From Candidatus Methylomirabilota bacterium (GTDB lineage: Bacteria > Methylomirabilota > Methylomirabilia > Methylomirabilales > 2-02-FULL-66-22), in assembly GCA_026387775.1 (NCBI GenBank), contig JAPLLC010000171.1, positions 1 to 34,518 on the forward strand: a stretch of 34,518 nt of DNA, read 5' to 3'. The notes under the pieces are model-generated. The model was not told the DNA's origin and did not search any database. It saw only the letters and a list, made by a program, of their open reading frames with translations. Positions within the stretch are counted from its first letter, which is position 1; every line of letters begins with the position of its first letter. Shown piece after piece: positions 3,925-27,786 of the stretch. A program made the position numbers and the translations under genes.

Positions 3925-5199
3925 ATGCGACGAGGTGGCTGGTTGATGCTGGTGATTCTGGCGGCGGTGCTGGTCGCCGTGGCGCTCCCTGGCTCTAGCT
4001 TCGCGCAACAGAAGAAGATCGTGTTCTGGACCCACTGGGAGCAGAACCCCGAATTCAACAAGTGGTACGAGACCAAGGGCAAGGAATTCGCCAAGAAAAC
4101 CGGGTTTGAAGTGGAACTGGTCACCGTTCCATACCAGGGATACGAGGCCAAGTATCTCGCCGCCTTCATGGCCAAGAACGGCGCCCCTGACATGTTCATG
4201 GGGATGACGCACCACTGGTGCGGACAGTACGATTTCTGCGACAAGATGCCCGCCGATCTGGCCAAGACCTGGGAGGATAATCTGCCCAAGTATATGTTGC
4301 CCGTTGGCATGTGGAAGGGTGTCCGCTACGGGATGCCGATCGAGCATGGCAATTTCCAGCAGATGTACATCAACGTGGATATGTTCAAGAAGGCCGGCCT
4401 GAACCCCGATCGGCCGCCCAAGACCTTCGACGAGTGGCTGGCGGCCATGAAGAAGTTGACCATTGCCGACCCCAAGGGAGGTGAGCCGACACAGGTGGGC
4501 TTCGCCATCCGAAGCAAGGGGCATCCCGTGGGGATCACGGATAAGTTCCTGCCCTTTGCCCACGCCTGGGGCGCCCGGATGCTGAGCCCGGATCTGGACA
4601 AGGCCACCGGCTATGCCAACAGCCCGCAGATGGTGGCCGCTCTCACCTTCTTTAGCGATCTGGTCCTGAAGGACAAGGTGGCCAGCCTGGCGTTCGGGAA
4701 TCCCGAAGATGCCTTTGGCCAAAAGCGCGCTGCCGTGATCTTCCGCGAATCCTGGTTCTTCGGCTGGGCGAAGAAGAACGCGCCTGATGTGAGCGTCAAG
4801 GTGTTCGCCCTCCCGTGCGCCAAGGCGTGCCCGGGCGCCGGCGCGCTGTTCCCCTGGACGGACCTGGTCTACAAGAACAGCCCAAACAAGCAGATGGCCT
4901 GGGAATTCCACAAGTTCATCAGCAATGCCAAGGACGATCTGGAGCATCATCAGGTCGAGGGAATCCTCCCGGTCTGGACGGCGAATCTCGAGACCGCCTA
5001 CGTGAAGTCTCGGCCCGACTACCAGTCCACGAAGGATATGCTCGCCCAACCGGTGCCACCGACCTACTTCCACCCGAAATCGAACGAGTTGGCCACCGCC
5101 TTCGGCGAAGCGGTTGTAGGCGCCCTGTTCGGCAAGGGCCAGCCAAAGCCCCTGCTGGACGACGCAGCCGCCAAGATGGATCGCATCCTCAAGGACTAG
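3925..5199 (+). CDS. Carbohydrate (CUT1-type) ABC transporter extracellular substrate-binding protein
   Basis: MRRGGWLMLVILAAVLVAVALPGSSFAQQKKIVFWTHWEQNPEFNKWYETKGKEFAKKTGFEVE: signal peptide plus SBP family 1; SD aaggag upstream of ATG 3925. Confidence 0.92.
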   Translation: MRRGGWLMLVILAAVLVAVALPGSSFAQQKKIVFWTHWEQNPEFNKWYETKGKEFAKKTGFEVELVTVPYQGYEAKYLAAFMAKNGAPDMFMGMTHHWCGQYDFCDKMPADLAKTWEDNLPKYMLPVGMWKGVRYGMPIEHGNFQQMYINVDMFKKAGLNPDRPPKTFDEWLAAMKKLTIADPKGGEPTQVGFAIRSKGHPVGITDKFLPFAHAWGARMLSPDLDKATGYANSPQMVAALTFFSDLVLKDKVASLAFGNPEDAFGQKRAAVIFRESWFFGWAKKNAPDVSVKVFALPCAKACPGAGALFPWTDLVYKNSPNKQMAWEFHKFISNAKDDLEHHQVEGILPVWTANLETAYVKSRPDYQSTKDMLAQPVPPTYFHPKSNELATAFGEAVVGALFGKGQPKPLLDDAAAKMDRILKD

Positions 5200-6238: not shown

Positions 6239-7114
6239 ATGAATTCCGCCGCTCCATCTCGCGACCGTTCTCCCCGCGCGGCCCTCACCGTTCGCCGTGT
6301 CTATTTTCGCTGGCTCACCGCTCTCTTGGTCGCGTGCGGTGCCATCACGATCTTCTTCCCCTTCTTCTGGATGGCGATCACCTCGCTGAAAACCGCCCCC
6401 GAGATCCAGCGTGTGCCGCTCCAGATCGCCCCCGACCACTGGTTCAACCTGACCAACTACTTCGAAGTCTTCAAGCGCGAACCCTTCATGCGGTACCTGC
6501 TGAACAGCGCCATCGTCGCCTCGATTGCCGCCGTGAGCAGCCTGGTGGTCTCCTCGCTGGCAGGATTCGGATTCGCGAAGTATCACTTCCCCGGACGGGA
6601 CGTCTTCTTCCTCGCCATCGTCGGCATCCTGATGGTCCCCTTCCAGTCCGTGGTGGTGCCGCTGTACACCTGGATAAACCGCCTCGGGCTGCTCGACACC
6701 TACCTGGGCATCGTGGCCCCGGACTTGGTCAGCGTCTTCGGCGTCTTCCTGATGCGGCAGGCGATCGAGATGATCCCCAACGATTACATCGACGCGGCCC
6801 GCATCGACGGCTGCAGCGAGCTCCGGATCTTTTTCTCGGTGATCCTGCCTTCGGTGAAGCCGGCCATGGCCACCTTGCTGATCATTAAGTTCATGTGGAA
6901 CTGGAACGAGTTCTTCTGGCCGCTGGTGGTGATCAACAGCGCCAAGATGAAGGTGGTCACCATGGGCCTGATGAGCTTCACCAACATGTACTTCATCGAA
7001 TATAACCTCCTCACTGCCGCCGCCGTGATCAGCATCCTGCCCATCTTGCTCATCTTTCTCACGCTGCAGCGCTGGGTGGTCCAGGCCGTGGTGATGAGCG
7101 GCCTGAAGGGGTGA
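6239..7114 (+). CDS. Carbohydrate ABC transporter permease (MalG/UgpE family)
   Basis: Multi-TM; EAA loop NDYIDAARIDGCSELRIFFSVILPSVKPAMAT; directly follows the first permease. Confidence 0.93.
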   Translation: MNSAAPSRDRSPRAALTVRRVYFRWLTALLVACGAITIFFPFFWMAITSLKTAPEIQRVPLQIAPDHWFNLTNYFEVFKREPFMRYLLNSAIVASIAAVSSLVVSSLAGFGFAKYHFPGRDVFFLAIVGILMVPFQSVVVPLYTWINRLGLLDTYLGIVAPDLVSVFGVFLMRQAIEMIPNDYIDAARIDGCSELRIFFSVILPSVKPAMATLLIIKFMWNWNEFFWPLVVINSAKMKVVTMGLMSFTNMYFIEYNLLTAAAVISILPILLIFLTLQRWVVQAVVMSGLKG

Positions 7115-7123
7115 GGCGTTTGG

Positions 7124-7189
7124 GATTTTAGATTTACGATTTTCGAGTGGGGGACCGGACTTCAAATCGAAAATTGCAAATCTAAGATC
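7124..7189 (+). repeat. AT-rich imperfect inverted repeat (intergenic hairpin)
   Basis: gattttagatttacgattttcga (7124-7146) vs tcgaaaattgcaaatctaagatc (7167-7189): 20/23 complementary at DNA level, 22/23 with G:U. Confidence 0.8.
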
Positions 7190-7208
7190 GAAAATGGGGG
7201 GTGATCGG

Positions 7209-8891
7209 ATGCCAGCACGAAAAACGACGGTCGAGGCATTCAACCAGCCGGGGATGGCGCGGACCCGCGCCCTGGTGAAGGCCATGGGTTACGACACCGA
7301 GGATCTGCGCCGGCCGCGGATCGGCGTGGCCAACTCCTGGAGCGAGACCAGCCCCGGTCACATCCATCTGCGGGCTGTGGCTGACGCGGTCAAGGCTGGC
7401 ATCTGGCAAGCGGGAGGCACCCCCTACGAGTTCGGGGGTTTCGGCCAGTGCCCCATGGACGTGGGGCACGGAGGTATACGCTACGACACCCCGACCCGTG
7501 ACGTCATCGCCGCCGATGTGGAAACCTGCACCGAGATCCACTGCTTCGACGGCCTAGTCCTGATCAGCAGCTGCGACAAGAACGTCCCCGGCCATCTCCT
7601 GGCGGCGGCCCGGCTCAACCGTCCCGCCATCCTGATCTCAGGCGGGCCGATGCTGGCAGGACGGCACCAGGGAAAGGATGTGATCATCACCGATCTGGAC
7701 GCCGAGACCTGGGCCTGCGGCGTGGGACACCCGCGACTCTCCGACGATGCCCTCGCGGAGCTGGAGGAAGCCGTCTGTCCCACCGCCGGCTCCTGCGCCC
7801 TGCTCGGAACCGCCAACACCATGCAGTGTCTGGCGGAGGCGGTCGGCCTGGCGTTGCCGGGTTCCGGGACGGCCCCCGCCGTGTCGGCCCAGCGCCTCTG
7901 GTTTGCCAAGCAGACCGGGCGTCGGATCGTCGGCATGATCCAGGAGGGCCTCCGGGCCCGTGACATCCTGACGCCCGCCGCCCTGCAGAACATGATCCGC
8001 GTGCTGCACGCCATCGGCGGATCGACCAACGCCGTGCTGCACATCCTGGCCCTCGCCCAAGAGCTCGACCTCGGCGCGTCGATCACGCTGGAGACGGTGG
8101 CGCAGCTCTCCACCGAGATCAGCTGTCTCGTGAACGTCCGACCCAACGGCGCTTACACCATGGCCGACTTCGACGAGGCCGGAGGCGTCCCGGCCGTGAT
8201 GGCGACGCTGGGGGACCGCCTCGATCGGAGCTGCCGCACCGTGACCGGCAAGACCGTCGCGGAGAACCTGCAGCCCGCCCGGGTTCGCCGGGCCGAGGTG
8301 ATCCGCCCCCTGGATCAGCCGGTCTTCCGGGGCGGCCTGGCGATCCTGCGCGGGAGCCTCGCCACCTCCGCGGTCGTCCGTCCCACCGTCGTGCCCGAGC
8401 AGATGATGACCCACACGGGACCAGCCCGGACGTTCGACTCGATGGAGAGCTGTCTGCAGGGACTGGAGAATGGTCGGGTCAAGGCAGGCGAGGTGATCGT
8501 GCTCCGCTACGAGGGGCCCCGGGGCGGACCGGGCCTGACCGAGGTGTTCAAGGTCCTGGGGTACATGGGCGCTCTCGACCTCGATAAGACCTGCGCGCTG
8601 GTCACCGACGGGAAGATCTCCGGCTTCGCCAAGGGGCCCTTCATCTGCCAGGTCTCGCCCGAAGCCGCGCTGGGTGGCCCGATCGCCCTGGTCCGGGGCG
8701 GCGACCAGATCGAGGTGGACATCCCGGGTCGTCGCCTGAACCTTCTCGTTCCGCCCGAGGAACTGGAGACCAGGCGCCGAGGCTGGACCTGCCCGCCTCC
8801 TCGCGTCGCCCACGGCTTCCTCAGCCTTTACGCCCGTCTGGCCGAACCTGCCGAGCGCGGTGGGGGACTCCCTGCCCGATTAAACGGCTGA
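7209..8891 (+). CDS. IlvD/Edd family dehydratase (dihydroxy-acid or sugar-acid dehydratase)
   Basis: MPARKTTVEAFNQPGMARTRALVKAMGYDTEDLRRPRIGVANSW, SSCDKNVPGHLLAAARLNRPAIL, TANTMQC; long IlvD/Edd fold. Substrate not determinable from sequence alone; start could be 7194. Confidence 0.9.
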   Translation: MPARKTTVEAFNQPGMARTRALVKAMGYDTEDLRRPRIGVANSWSETSPGHIHLRAVADAVKAGIWQAGGTPYEFGGFGQCPMDVGHGGIRYDTPTRDVIAADVETCTEIHCFDGLVLISSCDKNVPGHLLAAARLNRPAILISGGPMLAGRHQGKDVIITDLDAETWACGVGHPRLSDDALAELEEAVCPTAGSCALLGTANTMQCLAEAVGLALPGSGTAPAVSAQRLWFAKQTGRRIVGMIQEGLRARDILTPAALQNMIRVLHAIGGSTNAVLHILALAQELDLGASITLETVAQLSTEISCLVNVRPNGAYTMADFDEAGGVPAVMATLGDRLDRSCRTVTGKTVAENLQPARVRRAEVIRPLDQPVFRGGLAILRGSLATSAVVRPTVVPEQMMTHTGPARTFDSMESCLQGLENGRVKAGEVIVLRYEGPRGGPGLTEVFKVLGYMGALDLDKTCALVTDGKISGFAKGPFICQVSPEAALGGPIALVRGGDQIEVDIPGRRLNLLVPPEELETRRRGWTCPPPRVAHGFLSLYARLAEPAERGGGLPARLNG

Positions 8892-9027
8892 GGCGATTGG
8901 GAGCAGGGGGGCAGGGGAGCAGGGGAGCAAGGGAGCGGAGGAGAAGGGGATTCACGGTCCGAGGCCTAAATCTCAGTATGGCGATCCTCTGGTTGTCCTG
9001 CTCCCCCGCTCCCCATAGCCTCAGCCG
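8885..9027. repeat. Inverted repeat embedding both stop codons of a convergent gene pair, with G-rich arms
   Basis: cggctgaggc (8885-8894) and gcctcagccg (9018-9027) are perfect inverted copies; inner arms are gggagcaggggggcagg... and ...cctgctcccccgctcccc. Confidence 0.75.
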
Positions 9028-10013
9028 CCGATGGCCGACATGGACCGATCCGGTTTGACGAAATCTGGCTGGTTGATCTTGTGACCCGCTTCCTTCTTCC
9101 AGACGGTGGCGATGATAAAGTCCGCAAGATCCTCGTCGGAGGCGCCCGACCGGAGAAGTCCTTTCAGGTCGTGCTCGGTCAGCGAAAAGAGGCAGGTCCG
9201 GAGGTGGCCATCCGCCGTGATCCGGACCCGGTTGCAGCTCTCGCAGAACGGCTGGCTGACGGAGGCGATGATCCCGATCGATCCGCGTCCGTCGGCGAAG
9301 TGATGGACGGTCGCCGGCTCCGACCCGTTGCCCTGTTCGCTTCGCAGCGGATAGACCGCATGCACCCGGGCGTGAATCTCGGCGCCGGGCACGACCGTGT
9401 CCATGGTCCACCGCCCCTGCGCGTCGAGAGGCATATACTCGATGAAGCGGACCTGAACGTCCTGTTCGCGCCCCAGACGTGCGAAATCGGCGATCTCGTC
9501 GTCGTTGTAGCCCCGCATGATGACGCAGTTCAGCTTGATGGGGTTCAGACCGGCTTCCCGCGCGAGCCGGATCCCCGCCAGGATCTTCGACACCAACTGG
9601 CCGTCCCGCCGCACCATGCGCTCGAAGCGCTCCGGCCGGAGCGAATCCAAGCTGACATTGATGCGCTTGAGGCCCGCATCCGCCAGACGCTGGACCTTCT
9701 CAACCAGGAAGAACCCGTTGGTGGTCATGGAGAGGTCCAGGGTCGCATCCAAACGGAGCAGCCCGGCGATCAGCACCTCGACATCCTGCCGCATCAGCGG
9801 CTCCCCGCCGGTCAGTCGGATCGTGTGGATTCCGAGACCGATGAAGATGCGCGCCAGATGCAGGATCTCCTCATAGGTCAGGATCTCGCGTCTGGGAAGC
9901 CAGGGCAAGCCCTCGGCCGGCATGCAGTAGATGCAGCGGAAGTTGCATCGATCTGTGAGGGAGATCCGGAGGTCGTCGATGGTTCGCCCGAACGTATCCT
10001 TCAATCGAGACAC
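9021..10013 (-). CDS. moaA: GTP 3',8-cyclase MoaA (radical SAM, molybdenum cofactor biosynthesis)
   Basis: DTFGRTIDDLRISLTDRCNFRCIYCMPAEGL (CxxxCxxC), LTGGEPLMR, C-terminal DRSMSAIGG. Start uncertain (GTG 10013 or upstream to 10058). Confidence 0.95.
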   Translation of the reverse strand: MSRLKDTFGRTIDDLRISLTDRCNFRCIYCMPAEGLPWLPRREILTYEEILHLARIFIGLGIHTIRLTGGEPLMRQDVEVLIAGLLRLDATLDLSMTTNGFFLVEKVQRLADAGLKRINVSLDSLRPERFERMVRRDGQLVSKILAGIRLAREAGLNPIKLNCVIMRGYNDDEIADFARLGREQDVQVRFIEYMPLDAQGRWTMDTVVPGAEIHARVHAVYPLRSEQGNGSEPATVHHFADGRGSIGIIASVSQPFCESCNRVRITADGHLRTCLFSLTEHDLKGLLRSGASDEDLADFIIATVWKKEAGHKINQPDFVKPDRSMSAIGG

Positions 10014-11245: not shown

Positions 11246-11372
11246 ACGGAAACTCCTTTACCTTCGGCCCAGGTGATCGCGCCTTGTCCCCTCACCCCGC
11301 CACCTTTGCGTTCGGTCGCGCACTCCGATGAGGTAGCATCCGTAAATAAACTCTATTCCACCAAGATGCGAA

Positions 11373-11401
11373 AGTACAACAGAACCTGATACGACTGTCA
11401 A
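11373..11401 (-). promoter_or_regulatory. Candidate sigma70 promoter for nuoB-nuoI
   Basis: Minus strand TTGACA-N17-TGTACT. Confidence 0.5.
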
Positions 11402-11424
11402 GCCAGAATGGCTCGTCCCGGTCG

Positions 11425-12427
11425 TCACGCCGCGCACCCTCCACTGGAATTCTCCGTCGATTTCAGGGAAATCGGAGCTTGGTCGGGATTCTGGCCCGCG
11501 GCAAACGCAGCCATCGCTTCGGAGAGGAGCTCGCCCGGGCAGGCTCGGTACTTCGGAGACAGATGGAATACCGCAAGATGGCGGGCCCCGGCAGCGGTCG
11601 GGATACGCCGCCTCACAGTAGAACAACTCCGCCCCACGCGCCAGGTCGACGATCCGCTCCCGGTTCTCGGCCGAATCCACGGCGTCCGTGACGTAGGCAA
11701 GTTTCTGGCCGGGGCTTACCCGGACCACCTCACGTCGTAGCGTTTCGACCGGGAAGATCCGCTCCCTGCGCTCCCCCTCGCAGGACCACGCGATCCGGAT
11801 CGGATACTCATCCGCCTCTCCGCGTCGCAGGGCGCGCTTGAGGTCCATCAGCCACGGCCCGACGGATAGCCCCAGCGCCTCCAGCCGCACCTTGTCCACG
11901 TTGAGGTGCGCCGGCTCCTCCAGGGCAAAGGCGAGACACGGAATCCGGTGGTCGAGATGCGTCCCTCGAACACGGAGTCGCGCTTCCGCCAGGATGAGCC
12001 CCGAGAACGGGACCACCTCCGGATCGTCCCGGCGCAGGAAGCCTTCGGGGCACGAGAAATGCGCGCACAGGATGGAGTCCGGACGGATCTCCCGGACCTC
12101 GATGCTCAGGCTGTACCCCTCCACGAGGTTCCAGGTGTACCCACGGAGCTTTCCCTCCATGTGGTCGATGAACCCCGGAGGGCCGTACATCCGCAACCCC
12201 TTCTTCCGGCCGAGGAGCACTCGCAGGAGGTGGTCAAACCCGATGAGGTGGTCGAGGTGGGCGTGGGAAACGAAGACATCCGAGATCTTGAGGAGGCGTC
12301 CGGCGGAAAGGCTGCTGATATCTCCCAGGTCAAAGAGGAGGGCGCGGCGCTCCCAAGGGAGTCCCACGTAGAGCGCCGGATCCCCGAAGACGTCGTTGAC
12401 GAGGAATGACCGGAAGCTGCTCGCCAT
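11425..12427 (-). pseudogene. MBL-fold metallohydrolase (ribonuclease Z-like), apparently frameshifted/deleted
   Basis: Frame 1 (ORF 11258..12427) carries VSHAHLDHLIGFDHLL and YVTDAVDS...LFYCEAAYPD. The expected C-terminal homology (ARHLAVFHLSPKYRACPGELLSEAMAAFAAG) is in another frame (ORF 11425..11700), and the HLTA-type segment between is missing. Confidence 0.75.
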
Positions 12428-16811: not shown

Positions 16812-19800
16812 TCAGGAGATGTTGAAGTATTTTGCCTCCGGGTGATGCACGATGATCGCCGAGGTGGATTGCTCGGGGTCGAGCTGGAACTCCTGGCTCA
16901 GCTCTACCCCGATCCGCCCCGGATCGAGCAGCGTGAACAGCTTGGCTTGATCCTCCAGGTTGGGGCAGGCGGGATAGCCCGGGCTGTACCGCGACCCTCG
17001 GTAGCCCTGCCGAAAGACTCGCGTGAGATCAGGGGAATCCTCTCCCGCGATTCCCAGCTCCTCCCGCATGCGCCGGTGCCACAGCTCCGCCAGCGCCTCC
17101 GCCGATTCCACCGATAGCCCGTGCAGGTACAGGTAGTCGGTGTAGTTGTGCTCCTCGAACAACTCGCGCGTGGCCTCGGACGCCTTCCGCCCGATCGTCA
17201 CCAGCATGCACCCCAGCACATCCATCCGGCCAGACTCCATGCCGGCGAAGAAGTCCGCCAGACAGAGCCGCCGGCCCCCGGCCTGACGGGGGAAGGTGAA
17301 TCGCACCCGAGGCGTCCGCCCGTCCTCGGCAAACACCACTAAGTCGTTGCCGTCCGACTGGCACGGGTAGTAGCCGTACACCACCTGCGGCTGGAGGATC
17401 TGCTCCGCGTGGCATCGCGCCTTCCAGCGCTCGTAGATCGGCCGAACGTGGGTCTGGATCAGCTCATCGAAGTGATCCCGGTCTCCCCTTCCCCGGTGGA
17501 ACTGCCATTGCGTCCGGAAGAGCGCCACCTCGTTCACGAAGCCGAAGACGTCGTCCAGAGAGATGCCAGTCATCACCCGAGAGCCGAAGAATGGCGCTAC
17601 CGGGATGGGCACGTCCGCTCGCACGTCGCTTTGGACTCGCGCCGCGGACACCGCCGGAGCCGCCGGCCGCAACACCTCCGCCTGGGCCGCGCGCTTCCGC
17701 GGCGCCGCGACCCGCTGGGCCTGCCCCTCCACACGGTCGCGCGCCATGATCTCTTCCATCAGGCGGAGTCCATCGAAGGCATCGCCGCCATAATGGACTT
17801 CCCCCTTGTAGATCGCGCGCAGGTCTCCCTCCACATAGCCGCGGGTAAGCGCGGCCCCGCCCAGGATCACCGGGAACCGGTCCAGCTCCCTGGCGTTCAG
17901 CTCCTCCAGGTTTTCCTTCATCACCAGCGTCGACTTCACCAGCAGGCCGCTCATCCCGATGGCGTCCGCCCGGTGCGTGAGCGCCGCCTCGACGATGTTG
18001 TGGATGGGCTGCTTGATGCCGAGGTTGATCACGCTGTATCCGTTGTTGCTCAGGATGATGTCCACCAGGTTCTTCCCGATGTCGTGGACGTCCCCCTTGA
18101 CCGTGGCCAGGACGATCTTGCCCCTGCTCTGCCCGTCCGACTTCGACATGAACCGGTCCAGATATCCGACGGCGGTCTTCATCACCTCCGCCGACTGGAG
18201 CACGAAGGGAAGCTGCATCTGGCCGCTGCCGAACAGCTCTCCGACCGTCTTCATGCCGTCCAGCAGGATCTCGTTGATGATGATCAGGGGGTCGTGCCTC
18301 CGGAGCGCCTCGTCCAGGAGGAGCTCCAGCCCCGGCTTCTCCCCCTCGACGATCCGCGCCTTCAGACGCTCCTCCAGGGTCCGGGAGACCTCGCTCGCCA
18401 CCGTCGTCTTGCCCGTCCCCGCCTTCTCGAACAGGCCCATGAACTCCGTGAGGGGGTCGTAGTCGTCCCGTCGCTCGTCGAAGATGAGCTGGCGCGCCAC
18501 CTCTCGCTGTCTGGGATCGATCCGATGCAGGGGCAGGATGCGCATGGCGTTGACGATGGCCGCGTCCAGCCCGGCCTCGATCGCCAGATGCAGGAATACG
18601 CTGTTCAGAACCTGGCGTGCCGCCGGCTTCAGGCCGAAGGAGACGTTGCTCACCCCCAGGATCGTGAAGACCCCCGGCAGTTCGTCCTTGATCCGGCGGA
18701 TGGCCTCCAGCGTGGCGATGCCGTCCTTTCGCAGCTCCTCCTGGCCGGAGCTCAGCGGGAAGGTCAACGCATCGAAGATGAGGTCGGAAGGTTCCAGACC
18801 GTAGCGCTTGACCGCCAGGTCGTGGAGACGGTGAGCCACCTTCAGCTTCCAGTCCAGCGTGCGAGCCTGCCCCTCCTCGTCGATCAAGAGGGCGACGACC
18901 GCGGCGCCGTAGCGCTTGGCCATAGGGAAGATACGGGCCGGCCGGCCGGCATCCCCATCCTCCAGATTGACCGAGTTGATGACCGCCCGCCCACCGATTC
19001 GTTTCAGCGCCGTCTCGATCACGGGCACCTCGGTGGAGTCGATGACCAGGGGAAGGGTGCACTGGGTGACGAAGCGGCGCACGACCTCGTCTACGTCCGC
19101 CACGCCGTCCCGGCCGACATAGTCCACGCACACGTCCAGAACGTGTGCACCCTCCCTGGCCTGCTCCCGGGCCATCCCCACCATGCCGTCGTAGTCGCCG
19201 GCCAAGAGATACTCCCGGCACTGCTTCGACCCATTGGCGTTCGTCCGCTCTCCCACGATGAGGAAGCTCTTATCCTGTCGAAACGGGGCGCTCTGATACA
19301 GGCTGGACGCGCCGGGCACGTATTCTGGCCTCCGGAGTCGCGCTTCGCGCCGGCCGATCATCTCCACCACGCGCTTCAGGTGGGCGGGCGTCGTCCCGCA
19401 GCAGCCGCCGATGACGGAGACGCCGTGCTCTTCAACAAAGATCTTGTGGAAGGCGGCCAGCTCGTCCGGGGTGAGGAGGTATCTCGCGTGTCCGCCCTCC
19501 ATCCGCGGCAGTCCCGCGTTTGGCATGCAGGAGATGGCCGTGCGGCAGTGCCGGCTCAGGTAGCGTACGTGCTCCATCATCTCCTGTGGGCCCGTGGCAC
19601 AATTCAGCCCGATCACATCCAGACCATAGGGCTCGAGCGTGGTGAGGGCCGCACCGATCTCGGTCCCCAGGAGCATGGTCCCGGTCTTCTCCATCGTCAC
19701 CTGGACCATGAGGGGGACGTCGGCACCGGACGCCCGCATGGAGTCTCGGCAGCCCACGATTGCCGCCTTGGCCTGCAGGAGGTCCTGGCAGGTCTCGATC

Positions 19801-24216: not shown

Positions 24217-25587
24217 TCACCCATCGATCCCAACCCAGCGGAGCAGCGGAAGCAGGTTCTGAGCGCCGTCGTGGTGCCAGGCCAGCGGTGGATGCGGCAT
24301 CTCGCCGATCGGGCAGATCCGGCAGACTCCCAGCGGAGCCAGGGCCTCCGCCAGGCGCTCTCGCCGCTGGCGACTCACGGCCGTCCCCACGCTCTGCAGA
24401 TGGCGGCTGAAGGGTCGAACCAGCCCGGCCACGTCGGCCAGGTCCGTCACCGCCTTGACCCGCACGACGCGGTTCAGGCAGGAAGGGACAAACGCCGGGT
24501 CGTCCTGGTAGATCACCGTCCAGGCTGTTCCCCCTTCGCTGGCGAAGAGCCGCACCGCCTCGTCGCGCAGCTCGCTGAACTCCGCCGCCGTCCTCGCCTG
24601 CTGGATCGCCGCGGCCTCCTCGACCGTGAGGAGCCCGCGGGGCATCGCCCGCTCGAAGCCCGCCATGGCAACCGCCAGCCGCTCCGCGAAATCCTGCGGC
24701 GTGATCTGACCGCCCCGCTCTACGTACACCAGATGGGCCGAGACGCAGCCCTGCTGGTCGAAGAGCGACACGTCGTAGGCCAGGCGGTCCGCCAACTGGT
24801 CGGCCGTCGCCGGGTCAAGCGCCTCGCGCCCGATCACCGCGAAGCTCAGCTTGTGGCCGTGGCCCACGAAACGCACAGGGGGCGGAACGCGCCCGCGAAT
24901 GCTCTCGATGGCCTCGTCGCTTCCCGACGCGACCACCGCCTGCGACGCCCCGAAGGCCGCTTGCTCGACGGCGTGGTTTCCCCCAGGCCAGGGTAAGATG
25001 GCCACCGCCCTCGCCAGCTTCGCATCCACTGCCGCGATGGACCGCGCGAACAGGGCGGGGAAGACCGGCTCCTCGGAGGCCGGCTTGCCGAGGCAGGCAG
25101 ACTTCACCAGCAGAGCGTGGATCAAACTGATGGCGGGTAGTCCCGGCACGTTTCCGGAGAAGATGTGGGTGGTGAGACTGGGACCGCAGGCCCGGTGCAA
25201 CCCACCGACCGCCCGCCTTGGCCGAAACCCGTCCAGCACATCCGGATCCCCCAGCTCCTCGGTCAACAGGTCGAGCAGCGCGTCCTTCCGACAGCCTTGC
25301 AACAGCCGTCGGATCCCTGTCTCCACCATCTGCCCGCTGTAGGGCGTACCGCCGGCGATCCGGCGGCGCGCCGACGCCATCCAGAGGGAATCCGGCGTGA
25401 GCCAGGCGTCCACGACGCGATCCAGGATCTCCACGATCTCGCGAACGGGCAGTCGCGCCAGATACGCCTTGCGCGCCGCCCAGAGCTTGGCCGCAACCTC
25501 TCCCACCAAGATGGCGGTGGGGCCCTCGCCGGCGCGCGTCTGAAGTTCCGGCGGGAGAAACCAGGGCTGCTCCGCGTCCCAGCTCAT
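24217..25587 (-). CDS. Acyl-CoA/acyl-protein reductase, LuxC family
   Basis: THIFSGNVPGLPAISLIHALLVKSACLGKPASEEPVFPALFARSI, VLPWPGG-like segment, FDQQGCVSAHLVYVE (LuxC catalytic Cys context). Start at 25587 overlaps luxE stop (ATGA). Confidence 0.88.
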   Translation of the reverse strand: MSWDAEQPWFLPPELQTRAGEGPTAILVGEVAAKLWAARKAYLARLPVREIVEILDRVVDAWLTPDSLWMASARRRIAGGTPYSGQMVETGIRRLLQGCRKDALLDLLTEELGDPDVLDGFRPRRAVGGLHRACGPSLTTHIFSGNVPGLPAISLIHALLVKSACLGKPASEEPVFPALFARSIAAVDAKLARAVAILPWPGGNHAVEQAAFGASQAVVASGSDEAIESIRGRVPPPVRFVGHGHKLSFAVIGREALDPATADQLADRLAYDVSLFDQQGCVSAHLVYVERGGQITPQDFAERLAVAMAGFERAMPRGLLTVEEAAAIQQARTAAEFSELRDEAVRLFASEGGTAWTVIYQDDPAFVPSCLNRVVRVKAVTDLADVAGLVRPFSRHLQSVGTAVSRQRRERLAEALAPLGVCRICPIGEMPHPPLAWHHDGAQNLLPLLRWVGIDG

Positions 25588-26705
25588 GGCCTGGTCTCTT
25601 CCGTGGCCGCGAGCATCTCGTCCACCGAAACCGAGCATCCCCGGGACTCCGCTCCCTGGATCCGGCCCAGCAGACGAAAGCCCAGCGACGTCGCCACGCC
25701 GACATCCTCGGTCAGGATGCCGATGACGGAGGAACAGTTGGCCAGACCGTAGTGGCAGAGGATCCCCCGCACCCCCTCTGGGACCGGTCGGAGCGTCTCG
25801 GCATCCAGGACGAGGGTCCGCGCCCACGGAGGCGCCTGCATGATGGGCTCGTCGGGCAGCCCGACGGCACGGCGGCGGAGGGGGGAGTCGTAACACTGCA
25901 TGCTCAGCTCGGTCATGCCGTACATGTTGACGCACGCATCCCGCCCGACGCCGAAGTGCTCGGCAATCAAGGTATACAGTTCGGCCTGGGGGATCTCTCG
26001 GGATTTCCCCTTGAATCCCCCGGTGTCCATCACCCGGCTGCCCGTGGGCAGCCGGAACCGCAGACCGTCGGCCCGGCAGCGATCCAGGAAGTGAACGAAG
26101 GCGAAACTCGCCCCGAGCAGGCAGACCGGCTCCCCCTCGTGTTCCACAGCGCGAAGATCCCCCCGCAGACGCTCGGCCTCCAATCCTTCCGTCCCGATGT
26201 AGAATCCGCTGCCGGGGCCGCCGAACCGATCCCGCATCAGACCCAGGTAATGAGCGAGAGAGGAGTTCGGCGAAAGCTCCGGCGGGCTCCCCAGGATCAG
26301 CAGCCGCATCCGATCCAGCTCGGGAAGGAGATTGGCCTTGAAGAAGGTCGCCGCCGAAGCGTCGTAAACCTCCAGCGTGAAGTGATAGTGGCGCCCCCGC
26401 TTGGCCGGGTTGGTCGTCCCGCTCGTCATGAAGCAGGCCACGGCCTGCTCGGCGGCACCGCAGGCCAGCGTAAACTCCTTAAACGCGGCGATGGGGACCG
26501 TGGGAATCTCGCCCCACGCCTGCACGGTCGCCGGGGTCTTGCCGCGCCGCTCGCAAAACCTGCGATACGTCGCGTTCGCCTGGAACTGGTAACCAAAGAG
26601 TCGCAGCGCCAGGTGGCCCCACGCGTCATCGTCCCGGGGCTGATCCGCCCCCCGTCCGATCATCTCGAGAATCGCCGCCCTCAGTTCCACCACGCTCTCA
26701 ACCAC
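25584..26705 (-). CDS. Acyl-protein synthetase, LuxE family (adenylate-forming)
   Basis: YRRFCERRGKTPATVQAWGEIPTVPIAAFKEFTL, FMTSGTTNPAKRGRHYHF, LPTGSRVMDTGGFKGKSREIPQAELY, NMYGMTELSMQCYDSP, ESRGCSVSVDEML; GTG start at 26705. Confidence 0.88.
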   Translation of the reverse strand: MVESVVELRAAILEMIGRGADQPRDDDAWGHLALRLFGYQFQANATYRRFCERRGKTPATVQAWGEIPTVPIAAFKEFTLACGAAEQAVACFMTSGTTNPAKRGRHYHFTLEVYDASAATFFKANLLPELDRMRLLILGSPPELSPNSSLAHYLGLMRDRFGGPGSGFYIGTEGLEAERLRGDLRAVEHEGEPVCLLGASFAFVHFLDRCRADGLRFRLPTGSRVMDTGGFKGKSREIPQAELYTLIAEHFGVGRDACVNMYGMTELSMQCYDSPLRRRAVGLPDEPIMQAPPWARTLVLDAETLRPVPEGVRGILCHYGLANCSSVIGILTEDVGVATSLGFRLLGRIQGAESRGCSVSVDEMLAATEETRP

Positions 26706-26760
26706 GCCCCCGCTCCTCTGCTCCCCAGCACCCCTGCCCCTCCGCACCCAGCTCCCCCGC

Positions 26761-27786
26761 TCAGGGGAACACAACCACCGCCCGGCCCACGATCTCTCCC
26801 CGCTGCAACGCTTCCAGAGTGGCCGGCAGCTCCTCCAGGGCGACTCGACGGTCCACCACGGCCCGGATCCTCCCCGCCGCCGCCAGATCCACCGCCTGGA
26901 GCAGCTCTTCCAGTGTGTTTCCCACCGCCGCCGTGACGGTGATCTCCCCGATGACGAGCTGGAGTGGGCTGACAACGAGCTGGTCCGCGGAGTAGCCGAC
27001 GAACACCAGGCGGCCCCGCCGCCGCAGCGCGTTGATCGCCTCGCCCATCGTGGCGCGGACACCCGCCAGCTCGAACACCACGTCCGCCCCCTCGCCCCGC
27101 GTCTGGGCGCGAACTTCCTCCGCCACCGATCGCGTCCCGTCGAGGACGACGTCGGCGCCCAGCTCGGCCGCCTTGGCCCGGCGCGCCGCCGATCGGGTGA
27201 CCGCGATGACACGCGCCCCCGCCAGCTTGCAGTACTGGATCAAGCCAAACCCGACTCCCCCGGCCCCGTAGACCACCACCGTCTCCCCGAGCCGCACGCG
27301 GGCGATCGTCCCCGCAGCATGGATCGCCGTGGTCACGCTACAGCCGAGCGTCGCGGCCTCCGCCAGGTCCAGAACGGCCGGAATCCTCACCAGGTTCGCG
27401 GCGGGCACCACGACGTATTCCGCATAGCCTCCGTCCGCCGTGAACCCGTACTCCGCCACCACCTGCGGGCACAGGTTGGCGCGATCAGTCCGGCACCAGT
27501 GACAGCGCCCGCAGGTGGCGTAGTAGGAGACCAGAACCCGATCGTCCACGGTCACGCCGACGCTCCCCTCCCCTAATTCGGCCACCTCGCCGGCAATCTC
27601 GTGGCCCAACGTGAGCGGGGAGATCCCCAGGTTGAGCACCCCGTTCAGGAAGTGGAGGTCGGTGTGGCAGATCCCGGCCGCCTTCACCCGCACGAGAACC
27701 TCACCATACGCCGGCGGGCGAACCGCCACACTCTCCAGACTGAGGGGTTTCCCGGGACCGTGATACCGTGCCGCGCGCATGTTCAT
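26761..27786 (-). CDS. Zinc-dependent alcohol dehydrogenase (MDR superfamily)
   Basis: GICHTDLHFLNG, LGHEIAGEVAELG, structural Zn motif CGRCHWCRTDRANLC, VYGAGGVGFGLIQYCKLAGARVIAV. Confidence 0.93.
   Translation of the reverse strand: MNMRAARYHGPGKPLSLESVAVRPPAYGEVLVRVKAAGICHTDLHFLNGVLNLGISPLTLGHEIAGEVAELGEGSVGVTVDDRVLVSYYATCGRCHWCRTDRANLCPQVVAEYGFTADGGYAEYVVVPAANLVRIPAVLDLAEAATLGCSVTTAIHAAGTIARVRLGETVVVYGAGGVGFGLIQYCKLAGARVIAVTRSAARRAKAAELGADVVLDGTRSVAEEVRAQTRGEGADVVFELAGVRATMGEAINALRRRGRLVFVGYSADQLVVSPLQLVIGEITVTAAVGNTLEELLQAVDLAAAGRIRAVVDRRVALEELPATLEALQRGEIVGRAVVVFP

Follow-up and report, generated by a model that had tools for sequence, protein, structure and literature searches.

An RNase Z-like gene of a Methylomirabilota genome with a 65-nucleotide gap that most likely arose in assembly

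The locus

The window, by which we mean the whole analysed stretch of 34,518 nt, carries on its minus strand an ORF of 389 aa that begins as an RNase Z-like protein of the metallo-beta-lactamase (MBL) fold and ends in a different reading frame. Its parts are as follows.

11258..12427, minus strand: called ORF of 389 aa, chimeric; the 278 N-terminal aa are RNase Z-like, and about 110 aa form a frame-shifted tail.
11594..12427, minus strand: N-terminal homologous part, containing the metal ligands in SHAHLDH, the motif III His in LDHRIPC and the motif IV Asp in YVTDA; 74–75% aa identity to same-genus homologues, Ka/Ks 0.165.
11584..11598, minus strand: zone in which the 65-nt deletion has its breakpoint, the exact base being ambiguous; the missing stretch codes in the relatives for a segment with HLTA.
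11425..11590, minus strand: what is left of the original C-terminus, now in the shifted frame, ARHLAVFHLSPKYRACPGELLSEAMAAF..., with a stop at 11425; 79% identity over 28 codons.
11258..11424, minus strand: end of the called ORF, a tail with no homology that crosses the former intergenic stretch before nuoB.

The called ORF, with the sequence ...LFYCEAAYPDRCRGPPSCG..., runs to 11258, and Pfam gives only a partial Lactamase_B_2 match on it. An alternative frame over the same DNA reads PTAAGARHLAVFHLSPKYRACPGELLSEAMAAFAAG... and stops at 11425, which is the expected C-terminus.

The gene order in relatives is rhodanese, small ORF, MBL gene, MerR regulator, (IDH), nuoB, ferredoxin-type protein and MoaA-like protein. 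The window has the same order without the MerR and IDH genes, which in the loci L032 and L033 separate the MBL gene from nuoB. Past the old stop, the DNA at 11250–11425 still seems similar to the relatives' MerR promoter region (CTTGACAGT...GTTCTG), and beyond the MBL gene the window may thus have a larger deletion, whether real or not. Of the neighbours, nuoB and the ferredoxin, MoaA-like and rhodanese ORFs are whole. The IDH gene of L032 is apparently reduced to a short remnant. Elsewhere in the window (24217–27212), a LuxC-type acyl-CoA reductase gene adjoins that of a LuxE-type acyl-protein synthetase; genes for a zinc alcohol dehydrogenase and for SDR enzymes are close by.

Family assignment and conserved motifs

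The damaged ORF scores 332.1 bits with the NCBIfam model NF002558 (PRK02126, ribonuclease Z, subfamily model; cut-off 315), its aa 1–277 matching model positions 1–279 of 345. Intact homologues score higher (410 bits for L032, which is matched to the model end, and 382 for Nitrospira defluvii), whereas positions 280–345, with HLTA and FHxSP, are missing from the window ORF. The model of true RNase Z, TIGR02651 (cut-off 292.95), gives only 62 bits for the window ORF and 119 for intact L032. The HxHxDH, motif III His, TD and FH.S.(R/K)Y blocks of true RNase Z/ElaC (TIGR02651; PDB 1Y44, 2CBN, 3ZWF) align with the intact homologue; however, the intact homologues, at 119–131 bits, stay far below the cut-off of about 293. 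Because of these low scores, the NF002558-type genes are best classed by sequence as a subfamily that is RNase Z-like and separate from TIGR02651 RNase Z. The gene in the window is best seen as an ordinary NF002558-type RNase Z-like MBL-fold gene from a bacterium of the Methylomirabilota (NC10).

The gene is closest to three homologues of 336 aa, at 74–75% aa identity, in Methylomirabilota/NC10 MAGs of the same genus. A wider alignment of 106 rows (105 locus ORFs and the L032 reference row, some genomes being present twice) covers Methylomirabilota, Nitrospira, Desulfobacterota-type bacteria, Binatia, Proteobacteria and others. SHAHLDH, the HxHxDH metal-binding motif of the window ORF, is aligned with all 106 rows, and LDHRIPC and YVTDA also match the homologues. 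The His of HLTA and that of FHxS are both present in 103 rows; the remaining three rows, all ORF fragments, do not extend to this region. A strict regular expression for the motifs recovered only 16 homologues and was replaced by the alignment.

We take HLTA to be the HST loop and FHxS to be motif V, on the basis of an alignment to RNase Z chains of solved structure and of general knowledge. The product as assembled lacks HLTA, the counterpart of the RNase Z HST loop, which is kept in all rows covering the region. It also lacks the FHxSxxY metal-ligand His near the C-terminus, which is encoded in the DNA out of frame. With both elements lost, the assembled product should be inactive. An earlier note, made from the letters of the window, had described the ORF as a chimera lacking both motifs, and this description agrees with the alignment. 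It had also asked whether any homologue shares the tail of the called frame: none of the 106 rows does, and the deletion reading stands.

A single gap of 65 nt

DNA alignment with the three same-genus homologues revealed a single gap inside the MBL gene. In an ungapped breakpoint scan, a deletion of 65 nt gave 78–79 matches out of 110, and other lengths between 60 and 70 gave at most 55; the breakpoint falls at 11598–11584. Since 65 nt equals 21 codons plus 2 nt (3 × 21 + 2), the frame is shifted: HLTA is removed and the FHFSPKY end is swapped for an unrelated tail. The old frame 3′ of the break still reads ARHLAVFHLSPKY, and FHLSPKY is still encoded in the window, out of frame. HLTA does not occur in any frame of the window, and we found neither an N run nor a long repeat at the deletion junction. 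The earlier note had anticipated most of this: the out-of-frame deletion in an RNase Z-like gene is confirmed as one gap, of 65 nt only, the predicted loss of about 20 codons with a frame-changing remainder corresponds to the 21 codons plus 2 nt, and the predicted place, near 11590–11610, was right. The note had left the choice between pseudogene and assembly deletion open; the survey described below favours an assembly error.

There is no sign of relaxed selection when Ka/Ks is compared with that of intact relatives: 5′ of the break it is 0.165 for the window against L032, and 0.157 for the intact pair L032 and L034. Beyond the break, 28 codons of the old frame are aligned with L032, and they show 2, 4 and 20 differences at codon positions 1, 2 and 3, respectively. 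No further stop or indel was found ahead of the old stop codon. These three observations indicate normal selection until now, and hence a deletion that is either very recent or nonexistent in the cell. No second, intact copy was found in the same genome, in which the other RNase Z-like proteins are distant.

The segment that is missing here has strong self-complementarity in the closest relatives (in the lowest 1% of 100-nt windows for L032 and 4% for L034), which favours a deletion in vivo and also sequencing drop-out.

Comparable indels in the same MAG

The MAG consists of 312 contigs and is rated 100% complete, with 6.18% contamination. A sample of 60 other contigs or contig starts (717 kb) was compared with 80 of the same-genus genome G006, ORFs being matched both ways at an identity of at least 60%; the focal gene lay outside the sample. 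The comparison yielded about 107 gene pairs (32,433 aa), a few of them antisense shadows. Breaks in antisense shadow ORFs, N gaps and two ambiguous pairs (L151/L130 near 5331 and L183/L235) were left out of the count. Similar short indels are scattered over the conserved genes of this assembly, six in the gene pairs with G006.

purB, contig C10 (L133), 6335–7728: +71 nt, imperfect tandem duplication of neighbouring sequence.
gcvT, contig C54 (L264), near 11926: –44 nt, frame-shifted.
lolC/E, contig C13 (L136), near 18940: –31 nt, frame-shifted.
MacB-like permease, contig C59 (L269), near 4461: –16 nt, frame-shifted.
yoaA-type helicase, contig C7 (L130), 6479–9402: –66 nt in frame; 22 aa lost, including the helicase motif VILTSATLS.
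mazG, adjoining yoaA on contig C7 (L130): +10 nt, frame-shifting insertion.

Among these, purB and gcvT count as essential or core genes; no intact equivalent of either was found in the assembly, where the next best matches are 25–26% identical. The two copies in the purB duplication are not quite identical, a few bases being different, which fits an end-to-end placement of overlapping contig ends from strain variants. An IDH-family gene on contig C60 (L148, 4897–5814) lacks about 35 aa in frame, including the AIHKAN block, relative to a homologue of 51% identity; this gap is weaker evidence than the six surveyed indels. The missing segments have strong or fairly strong hairpins for the MBL gene, yoaA and gcvT. 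Those of the MacB-like and lolC/E genes do not, so that no general hairpin rule emerges.

G006 itself has about two comparable breaks (+5 and –35), so part of the indel signal belongs to this relative. Its nuoB (contig C19, L169, 9216–9800) contains an N run between repeated GVLKLQEKIS stretches, in all appearance a scaffold join with the overlap unmerged. A hexamer-based scan for frame switches over 303 kb of the genome was dropped as a frameshift count, its calls being confused by antisense shadow frames even in whole-looking genes.

Origin of the deletion

We consider it probable, at roughly 0.73, that an intact gene was damaged in metagenome assembly, and an assembly error is favoured over a real deletion by about 3 to 1. 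The 65 nt would have been lost most likely through a wrong contig-end join or gap closure; the HLTA segment would thereby have disappeared and the frame shifted, and the 389-aa product would be an annotation artefact. At the locus itself, the same picture would result if the dominant strain truly had the deletion. A very recent pseudogene, formed when 65 nt were deleted spontaneously from a hairpin-rich stretch, with no time for further decay, fits the single clean gap, the Ka/Ks values and the codon-position bias equally well, and the self-complementarity of the missing stretch in L032 and L034 favours it. The gene also seems dispensable in the genus, since the same-genus genome G003 (100% complete) has no detectable copy, and the MerR and IDH genes that accompany it in relatives are absent here. 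Against this stands the need for six more equally recent lesions in about 107 gene pairs, purB and gcvT included, and we regard a recent pseudogene as unlikely, though with a substantial minority chance. Several just-made lesions in core genes are improbable in a viable free-living bacterium, and for this reason an assembly error is preferred: a living cell would hardly tolerate such indels in six conserved genes, and scattered assembly errors would explain all surveyed lesions jointly. That the assembly, and not the cell, made the deletion is thus what we infer as most likely.

Two further explanations were considered. The contamination of the MAG and the diverged purB duplicate suggest mixed strains, and the assembler might have picked a branch carrying a deletion present in some cells; this would leave the lesions in essential genes as unexplained as the pseudogene does, and we give it almost no credence. 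A functional variant, whose short, frameshifted or recoded product would be, for example, a non-catalytic MBL protein or the result of programmed frameshifting, could invoke the frame that stays open for about 110 codons past the break. However, chance long open frames are common at about 66% GC (the window has many antisense ORFs), the tail is found in no homologue and crosses former intergenic DNA up to nuoB, and frameshifting could not restore the missing HLTA segment; such a variant is highly improbable.

The pattern of the surveyed indels matches published local assembly errors in metagenome assemblies. Such errors in public MAGs lead to incorrect protein-coding sequences, are prominent in IDBA-UD assemblies and take two forms, a local consensus that reads do not support and overlapping ends left unmerged where scaffolds are joined (Chen et al. 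2020, PMC7111523). The likeness lies in short segments missing or duplicated, in broken coding genes and in scaffold joins with unmerged overlap; the published errors are defined by lack of read support, whereas the indels described here were recognized by sequence comparison.

Significance

Whether it is an assembly error or a real deletion, the lesion is no new biology. It is improbable that the deletion is real and that this lineage undergoes unusually frequent short internal deletions in core genes; if true, this would suggest that a mutational or genome-decay process is at work in the Methylomirabilota species. The finding is chiefly a warning: a public MAG rated 100% complete appears to hold short assembly indels in about one in 20 of the conserved genes sampled, and errors of this type, left in place, spread wrong protein-coding sequences through databases (Chen et al. 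2020, PMC7111523). Apparent pseudogenes, domain losses and odd C-termini of this MAG should not be taken as biology until they have been checked against the reads.
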